Part shown: piece by piece, positions 32,946 through 49,365 of the stretch
How positions within the stretch are numbered: the stretch's first letter is position 1
Layout: each line of letters opens with the position of its first letter
Assembly: GCA_029821875.1 (NCBI GenBank)
Contig: JALGXW010000024.1
Span: 1-64,000, forward strand
Length of the DNA stretch: 64,000 bases
Direction: 5' to 3'
Source: Candidatus Hebobacterum abditum
GTDB lineage: Bacteria > Armatimonadota > Hebobacteria > Hebobacterales > Hebobacteraceae
Made by a program: the position numbers and the translations under genes
The notes under the pieces: model-generated
The model's database searches: none
What the model saw: only the letters and a program-made list of their open reading frames with translations
What the model was told of the DNA's origin: nothing

Positions 32946-34076
32946 ATGTTCAGTGAGGCCAACCCCGGCGCGAGTCGCCGGGTCGATCTGGACGTGCCTG
33001 GCTCTTACGAGGGGTGGGACCCAAAGGGGATGCTCGGCTTCGCACGCGACTTCCCCGAGCAGGTCAAGGAGGCGGCGCAGATTGGGCGCGAGTTCGCGCC
33101 GCCCAAGGCTTTCCAGGGTGCAAGGAACGCCATCCTGTCCGGGATGGGCGGGTCGGCGGTGGCGGGGGACTTCCTGGCGCGGCTGTGCGAGCACCGGCTG
33201 GCGATGCCCTTCTTTGTCAACAGGAGCTACCACGTCCCGGCCTTCGTCGGCCGGGACACGCTCTTCGTTGCCTCGAGTCATTCCGGCGACACCGAGGAGA
33301 CCTTGGCGGCAGCCAGCACCGCTCTCCGCAGGGGCGCTCGAATCCTCTGCATAGCAACAGGTGGAAAGCTCCAGGAGTTCGCGGGGAGGCACCGTCGGCG
33401 CAACGTCGCCTTCCTGCAGATACCGCGGCATGACCCGGATATGCCGCCGCGTGCGGCGCTGGGCTATTCCCTGATCCCGCTCGTGCGCGTGTTCGAGGTC
33501 CTGGGCTTGTGCCACGGCGCCGGCCGACAAATCGGGGAGGCGATCTCTCTGTTAGAGCACCTGCGGGACCGCGTCCACGAAGGGGTGCCCTCCGACCACA
33601 ACAGGGCGAAGCAGTTGGCGAGCGCTCTCCTTGGGCGCATCCCATGGGTCCAGGGCACGGTCGGGATCATGGGCGCGGCCGCCTACAGATGGCGTACTCA
33701 GTTCAACGAGAACAGCAAGATGCTGGCCTACTCGAGCGAGTACCCGGAGCTCAACCATAATGAGGTCATCGGCTGGGAGAAGGCAGAGCAGTACCGAGAC
33801 GTCATAGAGGTGGTGATGCTCCGCAGCCCGAGCGACTACTGGAAGGTCCGCGCTCGAGTCGACATAACGAAGAGGAAGCTGATTTCCCCCAAAACGCGAG
33901 TGCATCTCGTCGAGGCCGAGGGAGGGTCGCCGCTGGCCCAGTTGCTGTGGACAGTCTACCTCGGCGACTGGGTGAGCCTCTACCTGGCCCTCCTCAATGG
34001 GGTCGACCCCGCCTCGATCGACTCCATCAATATCCTCAAGGCAGATCTCGCGACCATCCAGCGGCCCCGCCAATAG
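32946..34076 (+). CDS. Bifunctional phosphoglucose/phosphomannose isomerase
   Basis: Interconverts fructose 6-phosphate with glucose 6-phosphate and mannose 6-phosphate. 376 residues of the archaeal/actinobacterial PGI/PMI family: SIS-domain GMGGSAVAGDFLARL at ~60, SSHSGDTEET at ~110, QFNENSKMLAYSSEYPELNHNEVIGW at ~258 (Glu and His catalytic area) and a C-terminal LGDWVSLYLALLNGVDP. GGAGGGAG ribosome binding site. Follows rpsR by 39 bp. Confidence 0.9.
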   Translation: MFSEANPGASRRVDLDVPGSYEGWDPKGMLGFARDFPEQVKEAAQIGREFAPPKAFQGARNAILSGMGGSAVAGDFLARLCEHRLAMPFFVNRSYHVPAFVGRDTLFVASSHSGDTEETLAAASTALRRGARILCIATGGKLQEFAGRHRRRNVAFLQIPRHDPDMPPRAALGYSLIPLVRVFEVLGLCHGAGRQIGEAISLLEHLRDRVHEGVPSDHNRAKQLASALLGRIPWVQGTVGIMGAAAYRWRTQFNENSKMLAYSSEYPELNHNEVIGWEKAEQYRDVIEVVMLRSPSDYWKVRARVDITKRKLISPKTRVHLVEAEGGSPLAQLLWTVYLGDWVSLYLALLNGVDPASIDSINILKADLATIQRPRQ

Positions 34077-34599: not shown

Positions 34600-35130
34600 A
34601 TGGCCAAGACAGAGGTCGGGCCGGCGGACAACGTTCCGGAGACGCTGCGCGCGCTCGCCCATCCCGGACTGCTGCTGGTCTCCCTCGACCGCCGAGGGCG
34701 GCCAAACGTCATGACAATCGGCTGGGGCTCAGTGGGCATCTACTGGGGGCAGCCCATGTTCATGGTACCGGTGCGGCAGTCGCGGTACACGTATCGCTGC
34801 ATCGAGACGACGCGTGACTTCACGGTCAACGCGCTGCCCCGGAAGCTGGCCGACCTCGCGACCTTCTGCGGCACGGTGTCAGGCCGCGATCACGACAAGT
34901 TCGCAGAGGCGAAGCTGACTCCGCATCCAAGTCTTCGGGTGAAGTCACCGATCATCGGGGAATGCGTGCTCCACTACGAGTGCAAGGTGGTGCATGTCAA
35001 CGACCTCGTGCCGAAGGCGCTGGCCGCAGACTTTCTGGGGTCTGCCTATCCCCGGGGCGACTATCACAGGTTCTACTTCGGGCAGATTCTGGCGGTGAGA
35101 GCGGAGGAGAATCTTCGCCGGCGGCTATGA
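34600..35130 (+). CDS. Flavin reductase-like FMN-binding split-barrel protein
   Basis: 176 residues: HPGLLLVSLDRRGRPNVMTIGWGSV opening, MFMVPVRQSRYTYRCIE, FTVNALP, DKFAEAKLTP and GECVLHYECKV match the flavin-reductase/FMN split-barrel family. Such proteins bind FMN and act as reductases or flavin carriers. The stop overlaps the acylphosphatase ATG, and another FMN protein lies at 35478. Confidence 0.87.
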   Translation: MAKTEVGPADNVPETLRALAHPGLLLVSLDRRGRPNVMTIGWGSVGIYWGQPMFMVPVRQSRYTYRCIETTRDFTVNALPRKLADLATFCGTVSGRDHDKFAEAKLTPHPSLRVKSPIIGECVLHYECKVVHVNDLVPKALAADFLGSAYPRGDYHRFYFGQILAVRAEENLRRRL

Positions 35131-35438
35131 GGCAGATGTGCGAGCAGGTCTCCGGACCGGCACGGTTTCGTGCCCTCATCTCCGGTCGCGTCCAAATGGT
35201 TGGCTTTCGGGCCTTCGCTGAAATGCGTGCAGCAGTTCATGGCGCAACGGGGTATGTGCGGAACCTGGCCGGCGGCGAAGTGGAGGTCGTGGCGGAGGGA
35301 GACCGAGAGCTTCTCGAGGCGCTCGTCGCCGATCTGCGCCGCGGCCCGAGCGGCGCACTCGTGCGCAACGTGACCGTCGCCTGGGAGACGCCCAGGGGGG
35401 AGTTCGAGGATTTCTCAGTGCGGCACGACAGGTGGTGA
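35127..35438 (+). CDS. Acylphosphatase
   Basis: 103 residues, overlapping the preceding gene by ATGA. ARFRALISGRVQMVGFRAFAEM holds the phosphate loop and catalytic Arg of acylphosphatases, and GYVRNLAGGEVEVVAEGDR provides the conserved Asn. Hydrolyses acyl phosphates. Position behind a flavin protein suggests no specific pathway. Confidence 0.92.
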   Translation: MRQMCEQVSGPARFRALISGRVQMVGFRAFAEMRAAVHGATGYVRNLAGGEVEVVAEGDRELLEALVADLRRGPSGALVRNVTVAWETPRGEFEDFSVRHDRW

Positions 35439-35477
35439 ACGCCGGGAGGCAGCTCCGCCGAGAGGAGGGAGGAGTCG

Positions 35478-36065
35478 ATGGAAGTGGTTGCGATCAGCGG
35501 AAGCCCAAGGCCCAAGGGAAACACGGCCACCCTTATCGAGGCGCTGTTAGAAGGAGCGCGCGAGGGAGGGGCAAAGACGACGCGCTTCGACCCCGCCCAG
35601 ATGCGGATCGAGGATTGCACCGCGGGCGACGAGTGCCTCGTCAGCCCGGAGGCGGGCTGCCGGATAGCCGATGATATGCAGCAGATCTACGACGGTCTGA
35701 GGCGAGCCCAGGCATGGGTATTCGGTTCCCCGGTCTACCATGCTCACGTCACCGGCACCCTCAAGCGCGTCATCGACCGGACGTACGCCTTCTACACTAC
35801 AGAAGGTGGCGAGTGGCGCCTGGGACTGGAGGGACGGCGGTGCGGGGCCGTGATCGTTGTCCAAGCGGACTCCGAAGAGGAGACGCCGCGACGTGTCGCC
35901 GAGTACCTGGAGCAGATCCTGCGCGCCTACAACGTCGACCCGTTGGGGTGTGTGGCAGCGTCGAATCTGGCAGAGCCAGGAGACGCGGCCGCCCGGCCAG
36001 ATTTGCTGGACCGCGCGAGGGAACTCGGGCGTGAGCTCGCAGGCGAAGCGGCAGCGCTCCGATGA
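35478..36065 (+). CDS. Flavodoxin-fold NAD(P)H-dependent FMN reductase-like protein
   Basis: 195 residues. ISGSPRPKGNTATLIEALLEGA is the FMN phosphate loop of iron-sulfur-flavoprotein/WrbA-like proteins; WVFGSPVYHAHVTGTLKRVIDR is the second flavin loop. Only two early cysteines are seen (DCTAGDEC), so the full iron-sulfur motif of archaeal Isf is not complete. Overlaps the GH94-like gene by ATGA. Confidence 0.87.
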   Translation: MEVVAISGSPRPKGNTATLIEALLEGAREGGAKTTRFDPAQMRIEDCTAGDECLVSPEAGCRIADDMQQIYDGLRRAQAWVFGSPVYHAHVTGTLKRVIDRTYAFYTTEGGEWRLGLEGRRCGAVIVVQADSEEETPRRVAEYLEQILRAYNVDPLGCVAASNLAEPGDAAARPDLLDRARELGRELAGEAAALR

Positions 36066-38647
36066 GGCGGGGGAGGAAAAGCGTCACGGGACCTGCGGAC
36101 GCTGAGACGAGGCTCGACCGGCTGACGGCAAAGGCGCGGCGCAACCTGGCCGCGGGCAGATCGCCTCGAGCGGGATTCTCGTCGGCGCACGTGGCTGCGC
36201 TCGAAGAACACTACTCCACGTTCGAGGAATCGCGGGACAGCGAAGGCTTCCTGACCGGTTCGTGCCTCACCATCCATCGCCCCGACACGCCGCGTCCCTG
36301 GCTTCACCTGTTGTGCAGCCCTCACGATCGGGCCTATGGAGTGATGGGATCGTTCTGGGACCAGACCGGCCTGGGGTTCCTCTGTTACGAGAGCGTGCTG
36401 GCAGGGCCGGTCACATCGCACAAAGACGCAAGCTACGTGCCCACCGCCCCACGCAGCACGGACGTACGTGAGTTCCACCTGCGGGAGGACGGCCGCGGTG
36501 GCGCGACCATCTGGCACATGCTGCCTCAGGTGGGGCGGGAGGCCGAGGCGTACGAGGGCCACCGCTGCCGTCAGCACCCGGGCTGGATCGAGGTCGAAAG
36601 CTCACGGAACAGGATCAGATCGCACCTTCGCGTCTTCATTCCCACAGACGACACGTGCGAGGTGTGGACGATCACGCTCAAGAACGAGAGCACTCGGCAG
36701 AGGAAGCTGAAGCTATTCGCCCGGGTCAACTGGGGTCTGGGGAGCCACCCCTCCTACTACTTCGATCCGCGAGTCACCTCGCAGGGCGACTACCTCAGAG
36801 ACCTGCGGGCCATCGTCGCTCTCAACCACCACAAGGCGAATGCGCTTCCCCGCACCGGCTTCATGATGTCCAGCGTGGCCTTCGCCACCTTCGATCTGAG
36901 TGGCGAGGAGTTCAGCGGCGGCGGGCACTTCCGCCCATTCCCGCGGGCCGTGCAGGAGGGATCCTGCCGCAACTCCGTGGGACTGCAGCCCTACCTGGGG
37001 CTTGTGGGGGCGCTTCAGTTCAACGTGAGCCTGGCTCCCAGGGCATCGCGGACGGTGCACGTGCTCGTCGGCCGCACGGAGATGGGAGAGGCCGATTGCC
37101 GGCGCCATCTCTCGCGTCTGCGCGAGAAGTTCTTCTCCGACCGCGGCGTAGAGCGGGAGTTCCGACGAATGCAGGACGCCTGGCGCCAGAAGCTGAGCCG
37201 CGTTCAGCTCCGCACGCCGGATGAGGAGGTAGACCGCACCTACAATGTCTGGCTGAAGTACCAGCAGCACAACACTGCTCGGTTCACCCGGGCGCTGGAT
37301 CAGGTGGGCTATCGCGATGTCCTGCAGGACATGCTCGGGCTCTGCAACTTCAACCCGGAGTATGTGCGAAGCTTCCTTCCGATCGCGCTCAACCACCAGC
37401 TTCGCGACGGCCGCGCGATCCGGCAGTTCTTCAAGTATCCCGGTACCAACGCCTCGAACGACGAGCGAATGTACGGTGACAGCCCCGTGTGGATTGCAGA
37501 CACCTTGGTGACCTACCTCGAGGAGACCGGCGACTTCGGCCTGCTGGATGAGCAGGTCGGCTTCTATGATCTCGAAACACATCGGCAGGACAATCGCGCG
37601 AAGAAGCCGGTCTACCAGCACGCCATCATGGCGCTGGAGGGGCTCTTCGAGAACCGCGGGCAGAAGGGGCTCTGCCGGATCGGCTACGGTGACTGGAATG
37701 ACGCGATGGACGGCCTCTCCAAGCGCGGGGAGGGCGTGAGCACGTGGCTGTCGGCGGCCCTGATCTTCGGCGCTCAGCGAATGCTTTCCCTGGCGCGGCA
37801 CCTCGATGGCACGCGCCTCGCGGACTCAATGGAGCGGATCATCGCGACCCTGACGAAGGCGATCAACGACAACGCCTGGGATGGAGATCACTACGTCTTC
37901 GGCTTCAACGACGATGGCATCGCGATTGGCTCCCAGAGCAGCGAAGAGGGGCGCATCCATGCAACCGTGAACGCTTGGATGCTGTTCACCGGCGTGGCCG
38001 CCGCCGCCGGCCGAGAGGAGAAGGTGTTGACGGCCCTGAAACGCCTGTGGACCCCGATCGGCACCGCCTCCCTGGACATTCCCTACGCCTCTCAGAGTCG
38101 GGATGTGGCCGGCCGCATCGCGGACATCACCGGCGGGCAGTTCGAGAACGGCGCCGTATACACGCACGGCCATTCGTTCTTGCTATACGGCCTGGCCGTC
38201 ACGGGCCGCGCCGAGCAGGCGTACGACGAGTTGAAGCTTTGTCTGCCGGGGAACACCTTCCCGGACATCGCCACCGGCCCGCCGCACCAGCAGTCGAACT
38301 TCGCCGTCGGTCCGACGCACCCCAACTTCGGCATGAATCTCTACAGCAACTTCACCGGTTCGACGGCCTGGTATCTCAAGACGATAGACCAGATGATCGG
38401 CGTGTTGGCGGACTTCGATGGCCTGCGGATCGCGCCCGTGGCGCCCTCCGCTTGGCGGGAGTACGAGCTACGGAAGCGGTTCCGGGGCACGGACTATCGC
38501 TTCCGCTTCCAGCACGAGAGCGGGAAGAGCGAAGTGCGCTCCGTCACCGTCGATGGGAAACCATTGGCGCCAGTAGGAGGGGAGTTCAAGATCCCGCTGC
38601 CGAAGCGCAGGCCAAAGCACATCGTTGAGGTCGAGGTGGTCATGTGA
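36062..38647 (+). CDS. Glycoside hydrolase family 94-like disaccharide phosphorylase
   Basis: 861 residues. N-terminal beta-sandwich (GSFWDQTGLGFLCYES, DREFHL-like EFHLREDGRGGATIW), a helical linker, then an (alpha/alpha)6 barrel with YGDWNDAMDGLSKRGEGVSTW at ~545, where Asp is the general acid of GH94. C-terminal GRIADITGGQFENGAVYTHGHSFLLYGL forms the phosphate-side loop. GH94 enzymes split beta-glucosides such as cellobiose or chitobiose with phosphate. The motif resembles the phosphorylase part of cyclic-beta-glucan synthase, so the substrate is open. It starts a tightly packed sugar-phosphate operon. Confidence 0.88.
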   Translation: MRRGRKSVTGPADAETRLDRLTAKARRNLAAGRSPRAGFSSAHVAALEEHYSTFEESRDSEGFLTGSCLTIHRPDTPRPWLHLLCSPHDRAYGVMGSFWDQTGLGFLCYESVLAGPVTSHKDASYVPTAPRSTDVREFHLREDGRGGATIWHMLPQVGREAEAYEGHRCRQHPGWIEVESSRNRIRSHLRVFIPTDDTCEVWTITLKNESTRQRKLKLFARVNWGLGSHPSYYFDPRVTSQGDYLRDLRAIVALNHHKANALPRTGFMMSSVAFATFDLSGEEFSGGGHFRPFPRAVQEGSCRNSVGLQPYLGLVGALQFNVSLAPRASRTVHVLVGRTEMGEADCRRHLSRLREKFFSDRGVEREFRRMQDAWRQKLSRVQLRTPDEEVDRTYNVWLKYQQHNTARFTRALDQVGYRDVLQDMLGLCNFNPEYVRSFLPIALNHQLRDGRAIRQFFKYPGTNASNDERMYGDSPVWIADTLVTYLEETGDFGLLDEQVGFYDLETHRQDNRAKKPVYQHAIMALEGLFENRGQKGLCRIGYGDWNDAMDGLSKRGEGVSTWLSAALIFGAQRMLSLARHLDGTRLADSMERIIATLTKAINDNAWDGDHYVFGFNDDGIAIGSQSSEEGRIHATVNAWMLFTGVAAAAGREEKVLTALKRLWTPIGTASLDIPYASQSRDVAGRIADITGGQFENGAVYTHGHSFLLYGLAVTGRAEQAYDELKLCLPGNTFPDIATGPPHQQSNFAVGPTHPNFGMNLYSNFTGSTAWYLKTIDQMIGVLADFDGLRIAPVAPSAWREYELRKRFRGTDYRFRFQHESGKSEVRSVTVDGKPLAPVGGEFKIPLPKRRPKHIVEVEVVM

Positions 38648-39288
38648 GCCAGCCCGGATGTGAAGCGCTGGATGCTCTCGTTCACGAGTACCCGTCGCTG
38701 GGGCAATGCGCGGCGGAGATCGGGGCAGCCCGGGACGCCTTGATAGCCGCCTACGAAGACGGCTGCAAGCTCCTACTCTGCGGCAACGGCGGCAGCGCGG
38801 CCGACTGCGAGCACATCGCCGGCGAGTTGCTCAAGGGCTTCGAGCGATCTCGCCCGCTGCGGGCCGAGCTTCGCTCTGCCCTCGCGGCGCAGGGGCCGGA
38901 GGGCGAAGCACTGGCGAGACGCCTCCAGCAGGCGCTGCCAGCGATCTCGCTCACGGGACATCCCAGCTTCACCTCGGCCTGGGCGAATGACGTGGACCCG
39001 AACCTGGGCTTCGCGCAGCTCGTCGTCGCGCTCGGCAACGCTGGCGATGTCCTCCTGGCGATCAGCACCTCGGGCGAGGCGCGCAACGTCACCCTGGCCG
39101 CTTGTGCGGCTCGGGCGCTTGGCATGACTGTCATCGGTCTCTCAGGTGGAGACGGGGGCGCGCTCGCGCCGCTGTGCGACGTCTGCGTCACGCTTCCCGG
39201 AGGGAGTGTTGCCGAGATACAGGAACTCCACCGGCCCGCCTACCACTACCTGTGCCGCGCCGTCGAGGCGCACTTCTTCGGTGAGTAG
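38644..39288 (+). CDS. SIS-domain isomerase, GmhA-like
   Basis: 214 residues, GTG start overlapping the GH94-like gene. LLLCGNGGSAADCEHIAGELLKGFE is the sedoheptulose-7-phosphate isomerase (GmhA) signature with conserved Glu, followed by WANDVDPNLGFAQLV, LLAISTSGEARNV (phosphate binding) and VAEIQELHRPAYHYLC (His). GmhA makes D-glycero-D-manno-heptose 7-phosphate for LPS; a heptosyltransferase-like gene is at 61.9 kb. The adjacent HAD phosphatase could be its partner. Confidence 0.88.
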   Translation: MSQPGCEALDALVHEYPSLGQCAAEIGAARDALIAAYEDGCKLLLCGNGGSAADCEHIAGELLKGFERSRPLRAELRSALAAQGPEGEALARRLQQALPAISLTGHPSFTSAWANDVDPNLGFAQLVVALGNAGDVLLAISTSGEARNVTLAACAARALGMTVIGLSGGDGGALAPLCDVCVTLPGGSVAEIQELHRPAYHYLCRAVEAHFFGE

Positions 39289-39308
39289 CCGCCGCCAGTG
39301 ACACCGCG

Positions 39309-40316
39309 ATGGTAATCCTCGACGACTCCAACCTGTCGGAGTCCGCGGCTGGCCTTGAGATCGTGCGGCGCGTCGTAAGATGCGAGATCACGCACGTGAT
39401 CCATGACGTGGATGGTACTCACAGTCTCATCCGCGGCTGGGAGCCGGTCATGAGCCTGAGCCTGCACTACGCCATGACCTCCGGACTGCCGGATGATTTC
39501 GACAGCGAAGACAATCTGCAACAACTCGTAGCCCGAGTCGGGGCCAAAGCGCTGCCTGAGACCGATCGGTTCTGTGTGGAATCGGCCGGCATGTCTGCCA
39601 TCACGCAGATGGAGTGGGCCATCCGCAGGGGTGTCGAGGAAGAGACTATCGAGCTCCCGGGCGGGCCGCTGCTGGCAGGGGAAAGCGCGATCAACTCTGA
39701 GATCGTGCGCCGAATGTGGGAGGGTCACGAGCGGTTCCCGGACCTGGAAGAATCCGACCGGACCGTAGACTACATCGCGGACCGTGCGCCCAGGCTCTTC
39801 CGTCTCTACGAGGCGATGTTGAACAGAGCTTCGCGTGACAGGAACCTGGCTCGCGCCCGAGAGGATCCAGAGGCCTGGCGTGTTCCGGGGTCACTCGAAT
39901 TCCTGCAGCGCCTCCGTGCGGGGGGCGCCACGAACTACTTCGTCACCGGCACGGTGATCTCGACCGACGACCCGCTGACCGGGATGATGGAGGAGATGCT
40001 GGCCATCGGCCTGGAGGTTGGGCCCGGCCGACTCGTCGAAGCCGTACACGGCTCGAGCTGGGACAGGAAGATGCCAAAGGATGAGGTGATGCGGGGGCTG
40101 CTGACAGAGCTGGGAGTCGTTGCGAGCGATGTGCTTGTGGTGGGGGATGGGCGGAGCGAGGTGGCGGCCGGCGCAGAGATGGGCGCGGCAGTGATGAGCC
40201 GACTGGCGCTCGAGGCGACTCGGCAGCGCGAGCTGCACCGCCAGCTGGGCACCAACTACATCGTCGCAGACTACACGTCTCCGGCTCTGCACCAACTGCT
40301 GCGCGTGCAGGAGTAG
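39309..40316 (+). CDS. HAD superfamily phosphatase-like protein
   Basis: 335 residues. ITHVIHDVDGTHSLIRGW gives the DxDGT nucleophile motif near residue 36, YFVTGTVIST the second (Thr) motif, and VLVVGDGRSEVAAGAEMGA the third (GDGxxE). A large helical cap of about 140 residues lies between. The substrate is unknown; the place between two sugar-phosphate isomerase genes implies a sugar phosphate. The gene ends 4 bp before the next. Confidence 0.8.
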   Translation: MVILDDSNLSESAAGLEIVRRVVRCEITHVIHDVDGTHSLIRGWEPVMSLSLHYAMTSGLPDDFDSEDNLQQLVARVGAKALPETDRFCVESAGMSAITQMEWAIRRGVEEETIELPGGPLLAGESAINSEIVRRMWEGHERFPDLEESDRTVDYIADRAPRLFRLYEAMLNRASRDRNLARAREDPEAWRVPGSLEFLQRLRAGGATNYFVTGTVISTDDPLTGMMEEMLAIGLEVGPGRLVEAVHGSSWDRKMPKDEVMRGLLTELGVVASDVLVVGDGRSEVAAGAEMGAAVMSRLALEATRQRELHRQLGTNYIVADYTSPALHQLLRVQE

Positions 40317-40320
40317 GATC

Positions 40321-41403
40321 ATGGAGTATCGCGGTTCATTCGCTCTGTTCGACACGTCGGGCATCAAGACGTATCCGCTGCGGGAGCGCAGCAGCAAGGC
40401 GGACGTAGAGGCGTTCGTTGATTGCACAAAGCTCCGCAGTGCAGAGATCGCCCTAGAGGACCCGACACGCTCGGGGCTGCGCGACAAGCTTGAGGCGCTC
40501 GCCGACGCGGTGGCCGAGGCGCACGGCAACGGGAGGCCCGTGATCCTACAGACCGGTGCGCATTCCATCAAGAACGGCCTCTCTCCGATCTGGATAGACC
40601 TCATTGAGCGCGGCATCGTGACCCTCCTCGCCACAAATGTCGCGGCCGTCATTCACTCGTTCGAGTTCACGCTGACCGGGGCCTCATCCGAATCGGTGGA
40701 CAAGGTGCTCCCGAGGGGCGAATTCGGCATGGCCTTCGAGACGGGGGTGTACCTGAACCAGGTCATGATCGAAGGGCACCGTCGGGCCTGGGGTCTGGGT
40801 GAGTCTGTCGGCCGATTCTTCGTGGAGGCCGAGTTCCGGCGCTGTGTGCTCGACGCTGCCCTCGCAGGCGTCGCCGATCCGAGCCCATACTACGCGCCCT
40901 ACGACGGCTTCCCTTACATCGAAAGCTGCATGTACGCGCGGGCGCAGGAGCTGGGCGTCCCCGTAACCGTCCATGCGATGATCGGCACCGACATTACCGA
41001 CCAGCACGTCAACTTCGACGGAGAGGCGAAGGGCGAAACCAGTGCCCGTGACTTCCTCATCTACACAGAGCATCTCAGGCGATTCTCTGCCGGCGGTGTG
41101 CTCCTGAACGTGGGTACGGCCGTCATGGGCCCCGAGGTGCTGCTGAAGGCCGTCTCGATGGTCGCCAACCAGGGACACCCGCCAAAGGGCATCGTCACTG
41201 GCGACTTCGACATACGGCCCTTTGCCTTCCAGGACGATGTGCGAGATGAAGGGCAGTACTACTACTACCTGCGCGATCAGAAGACGATCGCCACCCGGCT
41301 CCCTCGCGTCTTCGGAGGCGCTGGCTACTACATCGAGGGTGACCAGGTCACAACGGTTCCAGCCTTCTACCAGTTGCTAATGCGGAAGCTGGACGTGGTG
41401 TGA
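40321..41403 (+). CDS. Deoxyhypusine-synthase-like protein of unknown function
   Basis: 360 residues. TGAHSIKNGLSPIWIDLIERG, TNVAAVIHSFEFTLTG, FGMAFETGVYLNQ, VTVHAMIGTDITDQH and LLNVGTAVMGPEVLLKAVSM define a bacterial family related to deoxyhypusine synthase that binds an NAD-like dinucleotide. The catalytic-Lys block of true deoxyhypusine synthase is not visible, and bacteria lack eIF5A, so the reaction must differ. Homologues I recall are annotated as hypothetical or deoxyhypusine synthase-like. Embedded between HAD and SIS genes, so a sugar-phosphate or cyclitol substrate is a reasonable guess. Confidence 0.75.
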   Translation: MEYRGSFALFDTSGIKTYPLRERSSKADVEAFVDCTKLRSAEIALEDPTRSGLRDKLEALADAVAEAHGNGRPVILQTGAHSIKNGLSPIWIDLIERGIVTLLATNVAAVIHSFEFTLTGASSESVDKVLPRGEFGMAFETGVYLNQVMIEGHRRAWGLGESVGRFFVEAEFRRCVLDAALAGVADPSPYYAPYDGFPYIESCMYARAQELGVPVTVHAMIGTDITDQHVNFDGEAKGETSARDFLIYTEHLRRFSAGGVLLNVGTAVMGPEVLLKAVSMVANQGHPPKGIVTGDFDIRPFAFQDDVRDEGQYYYYLRDQKTIATRLPRVFGGAGYYIEGDQVTTVPAFYQLLMRKLDVV

Positions 41404-41428
41404 GCCATCATCATGGGAGGACAGCGGT

Positions 41429-42508
41429 ATGAGTAACGCGCCCGAGGCACGGGCAAGACGGCCGTCAGGAAGGCGGCCCATCATGCTGCGGGAGATCCGC
41501 GAAGAGCCCGAGCGCGTTGCCACTCTCATCGACAGGGAGTCGGCCGGGCTGCAGAAAGCCCTGCAGAGGCTCAGGGAGAGTCCACCACCACTGATTCTCG
41601 CCGCCGGCCGCGGAACTTCCGACAACGCTGCCACCTACGGGCGCTACCTGTTCGAGCACTTCGCGGGGATCCCGGTCTCGGGCGCGGCACTCTCGCTGTT
41701 CACGCTCTATCCGGCTCCCATGCACCTGAAGGGCGCGCTGGCCATCGGCCTTTCACAGTCGGGCGAAAGCCCCGATGTAGCCAGTGCATTGCAGGCCGCT
41801 CGCCGCGCAGGCGCGTTCACTCTGGCGGTGACCAACAGCGCCGGCTCATCTCTAGCGAAGGTCGCCGAGCACACGGTCCTCCTCCATGCTCGTAAGGAAC
41901 GCTCTGTGGCGGCCACGAAGACCTACGTCGCGGAGCTCGTCGCGATGGCCATGGTCTCCCGCGCCCTGGCCGGCGAGCCACGCCAACGCGAGATCGAGCG
42001 ATTGCCGGAGTTCGTCCGCTCGGCCATCGAGTGCGAGGCCGAGATCGAGCGACTCGCCGCCTACTACAGATACGCGCCGCGCTGTCTCTGCCTGGCGCGC
42101 GGCTTCAACTACGCGACGGTCAGGGAGACGGCGCTCAAGCTGATGGAGACCTGCTACATCGGATCGACGGGCATGTCGGCTGCGGATTTCCTGCACGGCC
42201 CCATCGCCTTCGTCGAGGAGGACACGCCGGTGCTGACCTTTGCCGCCAAGGGGCCGACCTACCCGTTCATGCTCGACCTGGCCAAGCGGCTGGAGCAGCA
42301 GGGCGTGGACGTTCTCACCTTCACAAACCACAGGGAGATACTGGCGCATTCGGCCCTGGGCGTTCACTGCCCCGTCAGGGCACAGGAGGCCCTGACTCCC
42401 GTTCCGTTCGCTACCTTGGGACAGCTCTTCGCCTGTCATCTAGCCCTGATACGAGGGTTGGACCCTGATGCCCCAAGGCGGCTCAAGAAGGTGACCCGGA
42501 CGCTCTGA
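41429..42508 (+). CDS. SIS-domain sugar-phosphate isomerase/deaminase (NagB-II or AgaS-like)
   Basis: 359 residues, GGAGGACAG before the ATG. Two SIS domains as in the C-terminal half of GlmS, without the glutaminase: LAAGRGTSDNAATYGRYLFEHF, GLSQSGESPDVASALQAARR, AVAATKTYVAEL-like SVAATKTYVAEL and ETALKLMETCYIGSTGMSAADFLHGPIAF. Such stand-alone proteins include glucosamine-6-phosphate deaminase II and fructosamine-6-phosphate deglycases. A role in amino-sugar phosphate turnover downstream of the GH94-like enzyme is plausible. Confidence 0.87.
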   Translation: MSNAPEARARRPSGRRPIMLREIREEPERVATLIDRESAGLQKALQRLRESPPPLILAAGRGTSDNAATYGRYLFEHFAGIPVSGAALSLFTLYPAPMHLKGALAIGLSQSGESPDVASALQAARRAGAFTLAVTNSAGSSLAKVAEHTVLLHARKERSVAATKTYVAELVAMAMVSRALAGEPRQREIERLPEFVRSAIECEAEIERLAAYYRYAPRCLCLARGFNYATVRETALKLMETCYIGSTGMSAADFLHGPIAFVEEDTPVLTFAAKGPTYPFMLDLAKRLEQQGVDVLTFTNHREILAHSALGVHCPVRAQEALTPVPFATLGQLFACHLALIRGLDPDAPRRLKKVTRTL

Positions 42509-42556: not shown

Positions 42557-43177
42557 ATGCGAGTTGTGTTCCTATCGATGTTGCTGATCGGTGTGTCTAC
42601 CGCAAGTATCGGATGTGGAGCGACGATGGCAGACAATACGAGCAGCAAAGAAGAGACGTCTCCTACGGAGCAGCCGGAGCTTCGGGCTCCGACCGCCGAA
42701 GAGGTCGAGGCCGCGAAGAAGGCCGGCAAGGTGCAGGTTCTTCTCGACACGGCGAAAGGACAGATCACGCTGGCGCTGGACGGGGCAGCGGCGCCCATCG
42801 CGGTCGCCAACTTCCTGAACCTCGTGCGGACCGGGTTCTACAACGAGATGCCCTTCCACCGCGTCGAGCCCGGCTTCGTGATACAGGCCGGCGACCCGCT
42901 GCTTGTGGAGAGATCGCCCGTGGGCTACACGATCGAGGACGAGAAGTCTCCCATCAAGCACCTTCGCGGAACGATAGCAATGGCGCGGGTCTACCGCGCC
43001 GGACAGATGGTGCCCAACTCGGGCAGCACGCAGTTCTACATCTGCCTGGGCGATGCGCCTCACCTCGACCGGATGGGCTTCACGGCCTTTGGGAAGATCA
43101 CCGAAGGGATGAAGGTCATCGACCAGATTCGGGTCGGCGACAAGATCGTGGCCGCGAAGGTCGTCGAGGACAGCTAG
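42557..43177 (+). CDS. Cyclophilin-type peptidyl-prolyl isomerase, likely lipoprotein
   Basis: 206 residues. Signal peptide of ~18 residues ending ASIGC, a lipobox-like site whose -3 position is Ser, then an acidic linker and a cyclophilin domain from ~57: VLLDTAKGQITLALDG, NFLNLVRTGFYNEMPFHRVEPGFVIQAGDP (catalytic Arg), NSGSTQFYICLGDAPHLD and FTAFGKITEGMKVIDQI. Probably folds exported proteins at the membrane; Lgt and LspA are encoded at 20 kb. Last plus-strand gene before convergent M24. Confidence 0.9.
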   Translation: MRVVFLSMLLIGVSTASIGCGATMADNTSSKEETSPTEQPELRAPTAEEVEAAKKAGKVQVLLDTAKGQITLALDGAAAPIAVANFLNLVRTGFYNEMPFHRVEPGFVIQAGDPLLVERSPVGYTIEDEKSPIKHLRGTIAMARVYRAGQMVPNSGSTQFYICLGDAPHLDRMGFTAFGKITEGMKVIDQIRVGDKIVAAKVVEDS

Positions 43178-47192: not shown

Positions 47193-47636
47193 ATGGGACA
47201 GACAGTGCTGGTGGTAGACGACCATTCGCCCACTGTTGAGCTTCTAAGAGACGCCCTCACCCCCCAGGGCTTCGACGTCATTGCTGCTCACAACGGCGCA
47301 GAGTGCCTGGCTGCTATAGAGGAGCAGCAGCCAGACCTCGTGATACTCGACGTCTACATGCCCGTACTGAACGGGCTGGACACCCTACGCCTGCTGCGCC
47401 AGAGACTTGACGAGCAGCACCTGCCTGTCATCGTCCTGAGCGGGCGAGGCGGCTTCGCGGACGTCAGAAGCGCGTGGAAGCGCGGCGCCGACATCTACCT
47501 GACCAAACCGATCAGGGTGGGCGCGGTGGTCGCCGCGGTGAAGTGGTTGCTAGGAGAGTGTGGCCAGATCGGCGAGGCGTCTGAGCAGACCGGGGCGAGC
47601 GCCGCCATGAGCGGCGTCGTTGCAAGCGACCTCTGA
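47193..47636 (+). CDS. Receiver-only response regulator 1
   Basis: 147 residues: acidic pocket LVVDDHSPT, phospho-acceptor Asp in DLVILDVYMPVLNG, Ser in place of the usual Thr in VIVLSGRGG, and Lys in IYLTKPI. There is no output domain, only a ~25-residue Ala/Gly-rich tail. No kinase gene adjoins. First of three similar tandem receivers. Confidence 0.9.
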   Translation: MGQTVLVVDDHSPTVELLRDALTPQGFDVIAAHNGAECLAAIEEQQPDLVILDVYMPVLNGLDTLRLLRQRLDEQHLPVIVLSGRGGFADVRSAWKRGADIYLTKPIRVGAVVAAVKWLLGECGQIGEASEQTGASAAMSGVVASDL

Positions 47637-47884
47637 ACTGGTTTGCCTACAGCGTCCTGTGGGCATCCGCAGGGGCCTTCCTCGCGATCTGATCGCCGCC
47701 TTCAGGTGATAGAATGCGCGTCAACGGGGAGTGGCTGGCTTGGAAGTTTGGGAAGTCGAGCCGCTGCCTGATTCCGTTGCCGACGGCATCGCCGGGGTGC
47801 AGCGAGGGGATCGCTGCTCGGGATCGCGTTGCGCCTCTGCCGCATGTGGCAGCAGCGGGCAGGCCCGTTGACGGAGGCTGATGC

Positions 47885-48265
47885 ATGGGCAAGAAGGTGC
47901 TTGTCGTAGATGACCATCCGGCGATGATTGCGCTCATCTCGGAGGCCTTGATGGCAGCGGGGTTCAGTGTGCTGTCGGCCGAGAACGGGAGAGATGGGCT
48001 GGCCGTCATTGAGGACGAGCGGCCCGACCTGGTGATCCTGGACATTATGATGCCCGTCATGAGCGGACTTCAGGTGCTGAGGACCCTGCGGAGCAAGCCG
48101 GAGACGCTCTACCTCCCCGTCGTCCTTCTCACCGGTCGCGACGGCCATGCTGACATGCTCGACGGCTGGATGGGTGGCGCCGACAGGTATCTGACCAAGC
48201 CCTGCAGCATGGAGGAGCTGCTGGCCGTCGTCAAGGAGATGCTCGCGGCTCCCGCGAAGCACTGA
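47885..48265 (+). CDS. Receiver-only response regulator 2
   Basis: 126 residues. VLVVDDHPAMIALISEAL, phospho-Asp in DLVILDIMMPVMSG, Thr in VVLLTGRDGH and Lys in RYLTKPCS are all canonical. Ends directly after the receiver. About 250 bp from regulator 1 and preceded by GGAGG, so probably expressed on its own. Confidence 0.92.
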   Translation: MGKKVLVVDDHPAMIALISEALMAAGFSVLSAENGRDGLAVIEDERPDLVILDIMMPVMSGLQVLRTLRSKPETLYLPVVLLTGRDGHADMLDGWMGGADRYLTKPCSMEELLAVVKEMLAAPAKH

Positions 48266-48984
48266 CAGTCCAGCGACCCCCGGGATCGCCGGTCCGCATG
48301 CCGACTACAGGCGCGTGCCGCGCCTCCCGGTCCGATGGCTCTGCGCCGAGGCCGTCCCCAACTCCATCGCCCCCAGACCCTGGCTTGAGAGAACGATACG
48401 CCGGCCAGAGGGCCACGTGACTGCTTCAGGCCAATGGACGAGTCTGGGTCTTCACTGCGCAGGGAGGGGGCCGGAAGCAGGCCCGGCCCCAGTGCTCAAC
48501 TCACCGCGTTAGCGCCCACTCAGCGCGATTCCCGGGGCCGGACCTCAGTACCATAGCACACGCTTCAGATTCCTGCAACTTAGTTTCACTATGCGCAACG
48601 ACGCGGCGTCCCCCGGCCACGCGATCGGTTGGGCGGCCGTGCTCTCTACCCCTCAAGTCATGCCGGAGGAGATCTCCCACGACTGCCTCGAGGCGGTGGC
48701 CGACCTGGTACCCGAGCGGCGGCTGGCGCTCGACTCCCGGCCGAGCATGACCTGCGATGGCGACGGGCCGCTCCTGCCCAGAGACGCATGCAGGCCGCCG
48801 CGGGGCGCGAGGCACCACATTGGCTCCTGCCACAGGCCCGAGACTCCGCTCCGCCGGTGGCAGCCGGACATCGATCTCGGTAATATGGAATAGCTTACTC
48901 GGGGTCCTCTGCTCTGTCCTCTGTTGGCGCTCCCCAGGCGGCGCTGTGACGCTGCCGGCTGGTTGGTGTAGTGAGGGGCTAGCA
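48266..48984. other. 719-bp gap between receivers 2 and 3
   Basis: No convincing gene. A 100-codon plus-strand frame at 48591-48893 has gene-like third-position GC but no ribosome binding site and no recognisable sequence; it could be a gene remnant. No repeats, RNA or strong promoter were identified, apart from AT-richer patches near 48570 and 48880. Confidence 0.4.
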
Positions 48985-49365
48985 ATGGGAACGCGAGTTC
49001 TCGTGGTAGACGACCATGTAGAGACGGTGAGAGTGATCTCGGACGTGCTCACCCGAGAAGGGTTCTCAGTTGTGTCGGCGAGGAACGGCGAGGAGTGCCT
49101 ACGCCAGGTGGAGGCCGAGCGCCCGGATCTCATCATCCTCGATGTCATGATGCCGGTCATGGATGGGCTCAGGGCACTGCGAGCGCTCCGTGAGAATCCC
49201 GAGACACGGACTCTGCCGGTCATTGTATTGACTGTGCGCGACCAGCAGGGAGACGTGCTCGCCGGCTGGATGGCGGGCGCCGATCTCTACATCAACAAGC
49301 CGTGTAGGATCGACGAACTCGTCGCCGCTGTCAGACGGATGACGCTGGCAGGCGCCCACGCCTGA
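48985..49365 (+). CDS. Receiver-only response regulator 3
   Basis: 126 residues from ATG 48985 with GAGGGG upstream. VLVVDDHVETVRVIS, DLIILDVMMPVMDG, VIVLTVRDQQ and LYINKPCR give the full receiver site. The GWMAGAD-x-Y-x-x-KPC string is nearly shared with regulator 2, so the pair is closely related. No kinase or output domain nearby. Confidence 0.92.
   Translation: MGTRVLVVDDHVETVRVISDVLTREGFSVVSARNGEECLRQVEAERPDLIILDVMMPVMDGLRALRALRENPETRTLPVIVLTVRDQQGDVLAGWMAGADLYINKPCRIDELVAAVRRMTLAGAHA

Follow-up and report, generated by a model that had tools for sequence, protein, structure and literature searches.

A GSU2086-family protein with a deoxyhypusine-synthase-type NAD fold in a five-gene sugar operon of Candidatus Hebobacterum abditum, and its possible link to ADP-heptose synthesis

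HldD is treated as the standard ADP-L-glycero-D-manno-heptose epimerase. It has the SDR fold and is NADP-dependent, and many genomes that hold other heptose genes lack it. Another NAD fold is that of deoxyhypusine synthase (DHS), for which, to our knowledge, no eIF5A partner is to be expected in bacteria. ArgZ/AgrE (ornithine cyclodeaminase) and the archaeal LOR/SDH protein share this fold and have amino acids as substrates. In Geobacter, Tn-seq gave the same defect for GSU2085 (hldE), GSU2086 and GSU2087 (gmhA), with values of -3.1, -3.2 and -3.7, respectively (PMC5585712). Our literature search for DHS in connection with heptose yielded nothing relevant. Here, we analysed a window, that is, the whole stretch of 64,000 nucleotides of contig JALGXW010000024.1 from Candidatus Hebobacterum abditum, in which a member of the GSU2086 family is the fourth of five closely packed genes.

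The operon and its sugar enzymes

All five ORFs were found on the + strand where the initial annotation had placed them. They encode a GH94-family glycoside phosphorylase-like protein (36062-38647, 861 aa; PF17167 198 bits, PF06165 92 bits), a GmhA-like sugar-phosphate isomerase (38644-39288, 214 aa; SIS_2/GmhA profile), a phosphatase/phosphomutase-like HAD of the capped type (39309-40316, 335 aa; motifs and structure model), a GSU2086-family DHS-like NAD-fold protein (40321-41403, 360 aa; NF052581 302 bits), and a two-domain SIS protein of the NagB-II/GlmS-isomerase type (41429-42508, 359 aa; NF046059 225 bits). The first two genes overlap by 4 bp, and gaps of 20, 4, and 25 bp separate the following ones, so that the described packing, with overlaps or gaps of 4-25 bp, was verified in both coordinates and spacings. 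An FMN-reductase-like gene (35478-36065, +) overlaps the GH94 gene by 4 bp; the transcription unit therefore probably starts upstream of GH94 and is likely to include this reductase gene. The synteny of these two genes is retained at three related loci (L243, L244, and L002), and L243 also keeps that of a gene further upstream for a bifunctional phosphoglucose/phosphomannose isomerase (32946-34076, +; NF006426 344 bits). Downstream, after a 48-bp gap, a cyclophilin-type peptidyl-prolyl isomerase gene (42557-43177, +) marks the flank of the locus.

The complete five-gene order was found in a second genome of the same genus (L002/L048), at 83-92% identity, and in another genus (L042) the order GH94-GmhA-HAD-DHS is kept as far as the contig end. 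Because the order recurs in this way, the arrangement is not a chance one. The nearest named genome, Candidatus Hebobacteria (Armatimonadota), has the entire operon. Two features around the operon were noticed in passing. The flavin-reductase and FMN-reductase genes at 34600-36065 keep their order in relatives even without the HAD and DHS-like genes, and three small response-regulator-like genes, apparently tandem paralogues, follow one another at 47193-49365 (47193-47636, 47885-48265, and 48757-49365).

The GH94 protein matches cellobiose phosphorylase in the PDB (1e-61) and shows what is expected of a phosphorylase, namely both the catalytic and the supersandwich domain and the general-acid Asp. 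Its motifs are intact, with the general-acid DWND at residue 544 (37691-37702), the H of ENGAVYTHGH at residue 695, and the TGS of FTGSTAW at residue 764. The SIS protein matches NagB-II in the PDB (3e-48), and its scores of 202-210 bits with GlmS profiles are of the same order as that with NF046059. The latter lies under the equivalog cut-off for NagB-II glucosamine-6-P deaminase (430 bits); nonetheless, the catalytic residues are conserved, that is, the GlmS-like K and E (LKLMET, 42134-42151), HGP, and the C-terminal K. As for the HAD, the profile search assigned it to no Pfam family, and it is only weakly recognised as a HAD by sequence. All four motifs were found, however: DVDGT at 39405-39419, VTGT as motif II, K as motif III, and GDGRSE as motif IV. 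Its model (pLDDT 91.7) has a large helical cap, and Foldseek led to beta-phosphoglucomutase/phosphatase structures. GmhB is an uncapped HAD. By family, the window protein was rejected as a GmhB, being 335 aa long, capped and beta-PGM-like, and not of the uncapped HisB type.

The window GmhA-like protein retains GNGGS, GEL(E), STSG, and QE-H...H (39217-39246) as in GmhA, and alignment columns placed the catalytic E, Q, and H as well as the STSG phosphate loop; the roles of these residues are presumably those of E. coli GmhA. It differs from GmhA by an altered loop at NDVDPNLGF and by an insertion of about 25 residues, which splits the TIGR00441 match and leaves it at 123 bits, below the equivalog cut-off of 209. 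The GmhA models also picked up another SIS subfamily, in which D replaces the glutamate of GmhA, SGSG replaces STSG, and ED replaces QE. It occurs near clade B members of the GSU2086 family (see below) or elsewhere: at L083 (7752-8312), L094 (9040-9600), and L139, and as TIGR00441 matches in four genomes (G195, G199, G200, and G241). These four were ruled out as true GmhA by their differing catalytic columns, and for that reason they do not contradict the window gene being a heptose isomerase.

The GSU2086 family: fold, neighbours, and HldD

The fourth protein matched the NF052581 'GSU2086 family' model with 302.3 bits over residues 10-351, the curated cut-off being 250; like the HAD, it was assigned to no Pfam family. 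In a 128-member alignment, five residues are invariant, H112, E124, D244, K276, and R318, and the window protein has them all; H81, D224, and H229 are nearly invariant in the family. An AF2 model built from the alignment of 128 relatives reached a pLDDT of 95.7 and a pTM of 0.93. Foldseek ranked deoxyhypusine synthases first for this model (probability 1.00, TM about 0.5, 12-14% identity), followed by ArgZ/AgrE and a LOR/SDH protein. Among solved structures, the best profile matches were likewise to ArgZ/AgrE and LOR/SDH (6juy, 6lrf-h, 3c2q), with E about 1e-6 for the C-terminal NAD domain of ArgZ/AgrE. Among the 128 family members, 102 match PF21570 and 42 match Pfam DS. Profile-profile comparison to bacterial DHS homologues gave 97%, a value that rests on L252 and L255, the third template row (L251) being out of frame. 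PF01916 was absent from the window protein at E<=10 and throughout the host genome. The protein thus has the NAD fold of DHS, AgrE, and LOR/SDH yet is not a DHS, which bore out what the initial annotation had said of it. From its modelled fold, the family is predicted to bind NAD.

The initial annotation had also tied this DHS-like family to SIS and HAD sugar-phosphate genes and proposed a survey of its neighbourhoods. We ran this survey on ~140 loci; above the cut-off, the family is carried by 118 of 291 genomes in Armatimonadota and by 37 of 106 outside this phylum. The genes do co-occur, and the lack of co-occurrence that the initial annotation had named as refuting its proposal was not observed. 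Within 2.5 kb (640 kb in total), we counted 67 PfkB/HldE, 31 HAD, 17 GmhA, 16 HldC, and 11 KdsB genes. The corresponding numbers in the 3.5-6 kb control (531 kb) were 2, 1, 0, 0, and 1. About 40% of the surveyed loci had no such partner inside 3 kb. The HAD and DHS-like genes are adjacent in ~30 loci besides the operon, so this pair is probably functional together. Related orders were seen on plasmids, HAD-DHS-kinase-SIS in a Chloroflexota (L094) and HldE-like-DHS-SIS in a Solidesulfovibrio. Moreover, the family is fused to an HldC-type heptose-1-P adenylyltransferase in at least three genomes. Two fusions are clear (L150 and L166; TIGR02199 206 and 186 bits), a weaker one comes from another phylum (L125, 100 bits), and in G210 the GSU2086 and HldC domains lie in a single open frame. 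Scanning of 56 immediate neighbours also turned up five DUF3108 proteins, at loci of other phyla lacking heptose partners (L098-L131).

The family tree showed four clades: A, with heptose genes and in many phyla; B, with the HAD-DHS-kinase order; C, which contains the window member (with L054-L059); and D, a long clade in which several members adjoin GH38 glycosidase genes. Clade C is a unit with a support of 100, and its junction with clade A is moderately supported (90 SH-aLRT). In clade A, and in some of clade B, the gene adjoins heptose genes or is fused to one. The window member adjoins a GmhA-type gene only, and its nearest relatives outside the taxonomic family adjoin GH38, GH15, and other genes, not heptose genes. 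Genes resembling GH38 alpha-mannosidases stand directly before or near clade C or D members at six loci (L041, L046, L051, L054, L057, and L059).

HldD and the family were mutually exclusive almost throughout. In Armatimonadota, 118 genomes had GSU2086 only, 24 had HldD (above the cut-off) only, and none had both (Fisher p=3e-6, a value confounded by phylogeny). The 106 genomes from outside Armatimonadota each bear a different family label; among them, HldD occurred in 2 of 37 carriers versus 28 of 69 non-carriers (p=8e-5), and in 0 of 33 clade-A carriers (p=1.4e-6); G312 and G369 are the two that hold both. The separation also held inside single families, with 2 carriers and 8 HldD genomes in f9 (p=0.09) and 12 carriers and 2 HldD genomes in f35 (p=0.03). 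A swap was seen in genus g132 of f35. Three of its genomes (G241, G243, and G244) have the DHS-like gene before HldA in an LPS-core cluster; in G242, precisely this gene is missing from the same cluster, and HldD is encoded elsewhere in the genome. G240 has HldD, and all its GSU2086 matches are sub-cut-off. In several HldD genomes, HldD adjoins GmhA, HldE, or HldC. One such locus, in G026 (L195, 7887-9821), has a 644-aa ORF matching both PfkB/HldA and HAD profiles, next to GmhA, HldD, and HldC. Absence of HldD could instead mean an LPS with D,D-heptose rather than a replacement of the enzyme.

The host genome encodes HldA (270 bits) and HldC (175 bits) on contigs other than that of the window, HldC in an LPS locus alongside GT9 heptosyltransferases and a lipid A acyltransferase. 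Profile search found no HldD in this genome. Since the only TIGR00441 match and the single GSU2086 member of this genome both sit in the operon, the operon could supply steps that the host heptose pathway otherwise lacks.

Operon breakup in relatives and alternative readings

The initial annotation had taken the five genes for one new sugar-phosphate pathway. Our analysis did not support this. The cassette is broken up in relatives: G194 has GH94-GmhA-SIS without HAD and DHS, G199 has GH94-GmhA-HAD without DHS and SIS, and in G195, GH94 is the sole survivor. The five genes are therefore not an obligate set; the MAGs compared are incomplete. These three genomes have instead a clade-B member adjoining a PfkB kinase, and each of the six related genomes has one kind of GSU2086 member only, either that of the clade C operon or the PfkB-adjacent clade B one. 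The GH94 orthologues of family f1 genomes are 73-87% identical. That of G195 lies in two far-apart pieces (L244 and L245) of a single-contig MAG, through rearrangement or assembly error. Furthermore, the partners of the family elsewhere are largely the known HldA/HldE, HldC, and GmhA, and as these are ADP-heptose enzymes, replacement of a known step, that of HldD or a neighbour, is favoured over a new route.

A single catabolic route, in which GH94 would release a sugar 1-phosphate for the HAD, the two SIS proteins, and the DHS-like protein as a dehydrogenase, would account for the tight packing in the two genomes G000 and G196 and for the intact catalytic motifs of the GH94, GmhA-like, HAD, and SIS proteins. 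It also agrees with the occurrence of clade B in uptake-type loci, such as L094 with its sugar ABC transporter and Gfo/Idh/MocA gene, and with the GH38 or GH15 glycosidases next to several clade C and D relatives. We nevertheless consider it unlikely, given the piecemeal losses in sister genera described above, and because GH94 was found coupled to the GSU2086 family nowhere but in G200 and the genus of the window.

Another possibility was that separately acquired sugar enzymes merely share one transcript and form no single pathway. The presence and absence patterns across the six genomes, with one kind of GSU2086 member in each, are what such a loose assembly would produce. However, the arrangement does not vary among three genomes that represent two genera, and the pairing of the HAD with the DHS-like gene extends to about 30 other loci. 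This reading too seems to us improbable, if to no greater degree than the catabolic route.

Less credible still is action on an amino sugar via an imine, in which the DHS-like protein would use K321 (41281-41283) and the NagB-II-like SIS would release or add ammonia. The characterised relatives of the fold work on amines, the SIS keeps the GlmS/NagB-II catalytic residues, and K321 is present in the window protein and in 35 of 35 HAD-kinase (clade B) members, with a W beside it in many members, which recalls the W-G-K of DHS. Yet at the residue level the alignment is too distant to locate the DHS catalytic lysine and so does not establish K321 as its equivalent. Most members of clade A, the heptose clade, lack K321 and mainly have Q or T there. 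Besides, the partners of the family elsewhere handle neutral sugars, and among the surveyed loci, those of the window genus are the only ones where a NagB-II-like SIS adjoins the family. Finally, despite the remote homology to DHS, an activity as deoxyhypusine or homospermidine synthase with no relation to sugars is scarcely believable, with no Pfam DS match in protein or genome, a candidate catalytic lysine that is not conserved family-wide, and a neighbourhood of sugar genes and HldC fusions.

A proposed heptose role, and comparison with known systems

It is very probable that the GSU2086 family has some sugar phosphate or nucleotide sugar as its substrate. More specifically, we give a rough probability of 40% to its being an NAD-dependent stand-in for HldD or for a neighbouring heptose step, that is, a convergent DHS-fold heptose epimerase or another obligatory ADP-heptose enzyme in many phyla, with the window operon as a lineage-specific relocation. 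The protein would apply its DHS/AgrE-type NAD fold to an intermediate of the heptose pathway, either a sugar phosphate or a nucleotide sugar. We regard a redox-neutral mechanism as the likeliest, with bound NAD+ briefly oxidising a hydroxyl and then returning the hydride. If the action is HldD-like, it is C6 of the heptose that would be oxidised, the substrate being ADP-heptose or an earlier heptose phosphate.

Applied to the window, the GmhA-type isomerase would convert sedoheptulose 7-phosphate to heptose 7-phosphate, the HAD might stand in for GmhB at the phosphatase step, and the DHS-like protein would take the HldD-replacing step, HldA and HldC being encoded elsewhere in the genome. Whether the clade C member shares the function of clade A is more doubtful, and we rate its HldD-replacing role as rather unlikely. 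GH94 and the NagB-II-like SIS would be sugar enzymes on the same transcript, to which the proposal assigns no heptose step. Should the heptose reading be true, genomes missing HldD would be explained by a DHS-fold family in the same slot, fused to HldC and with a phenotype like that of hldE and gmhA. A widespread unnamed family would then gain a function, and the fold of a polyamine enzyme would prove to have been recruited to LPS sugars.

Compared with described systems, the window protein has in common with DHS the NAD fold and a remote profile similarity. It differs in having no significant sequence match to DHS, and the lysine that may correspond to the catalytic one of DHS is not conserved across the GSU2086 family. 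ArgZ/AgrE and archaeal LOR/SDH give the best structural-profile match, but only ~65 residues are alike by sequence. A close counterpart is GSU2086 of Geobacter sulfurreducens, which shows the same association with sugar-phosphate genes as the family of the window protein, whereas the window member belongs to a side clade with inserts and has no HldE/HldA or HldC adjoining. As for HldD (TIGR02197, ADP-L-glycero-D-manno-heptose 6-epimerase), it has no homology to the GSU2086 family and occupies the same gene slot.
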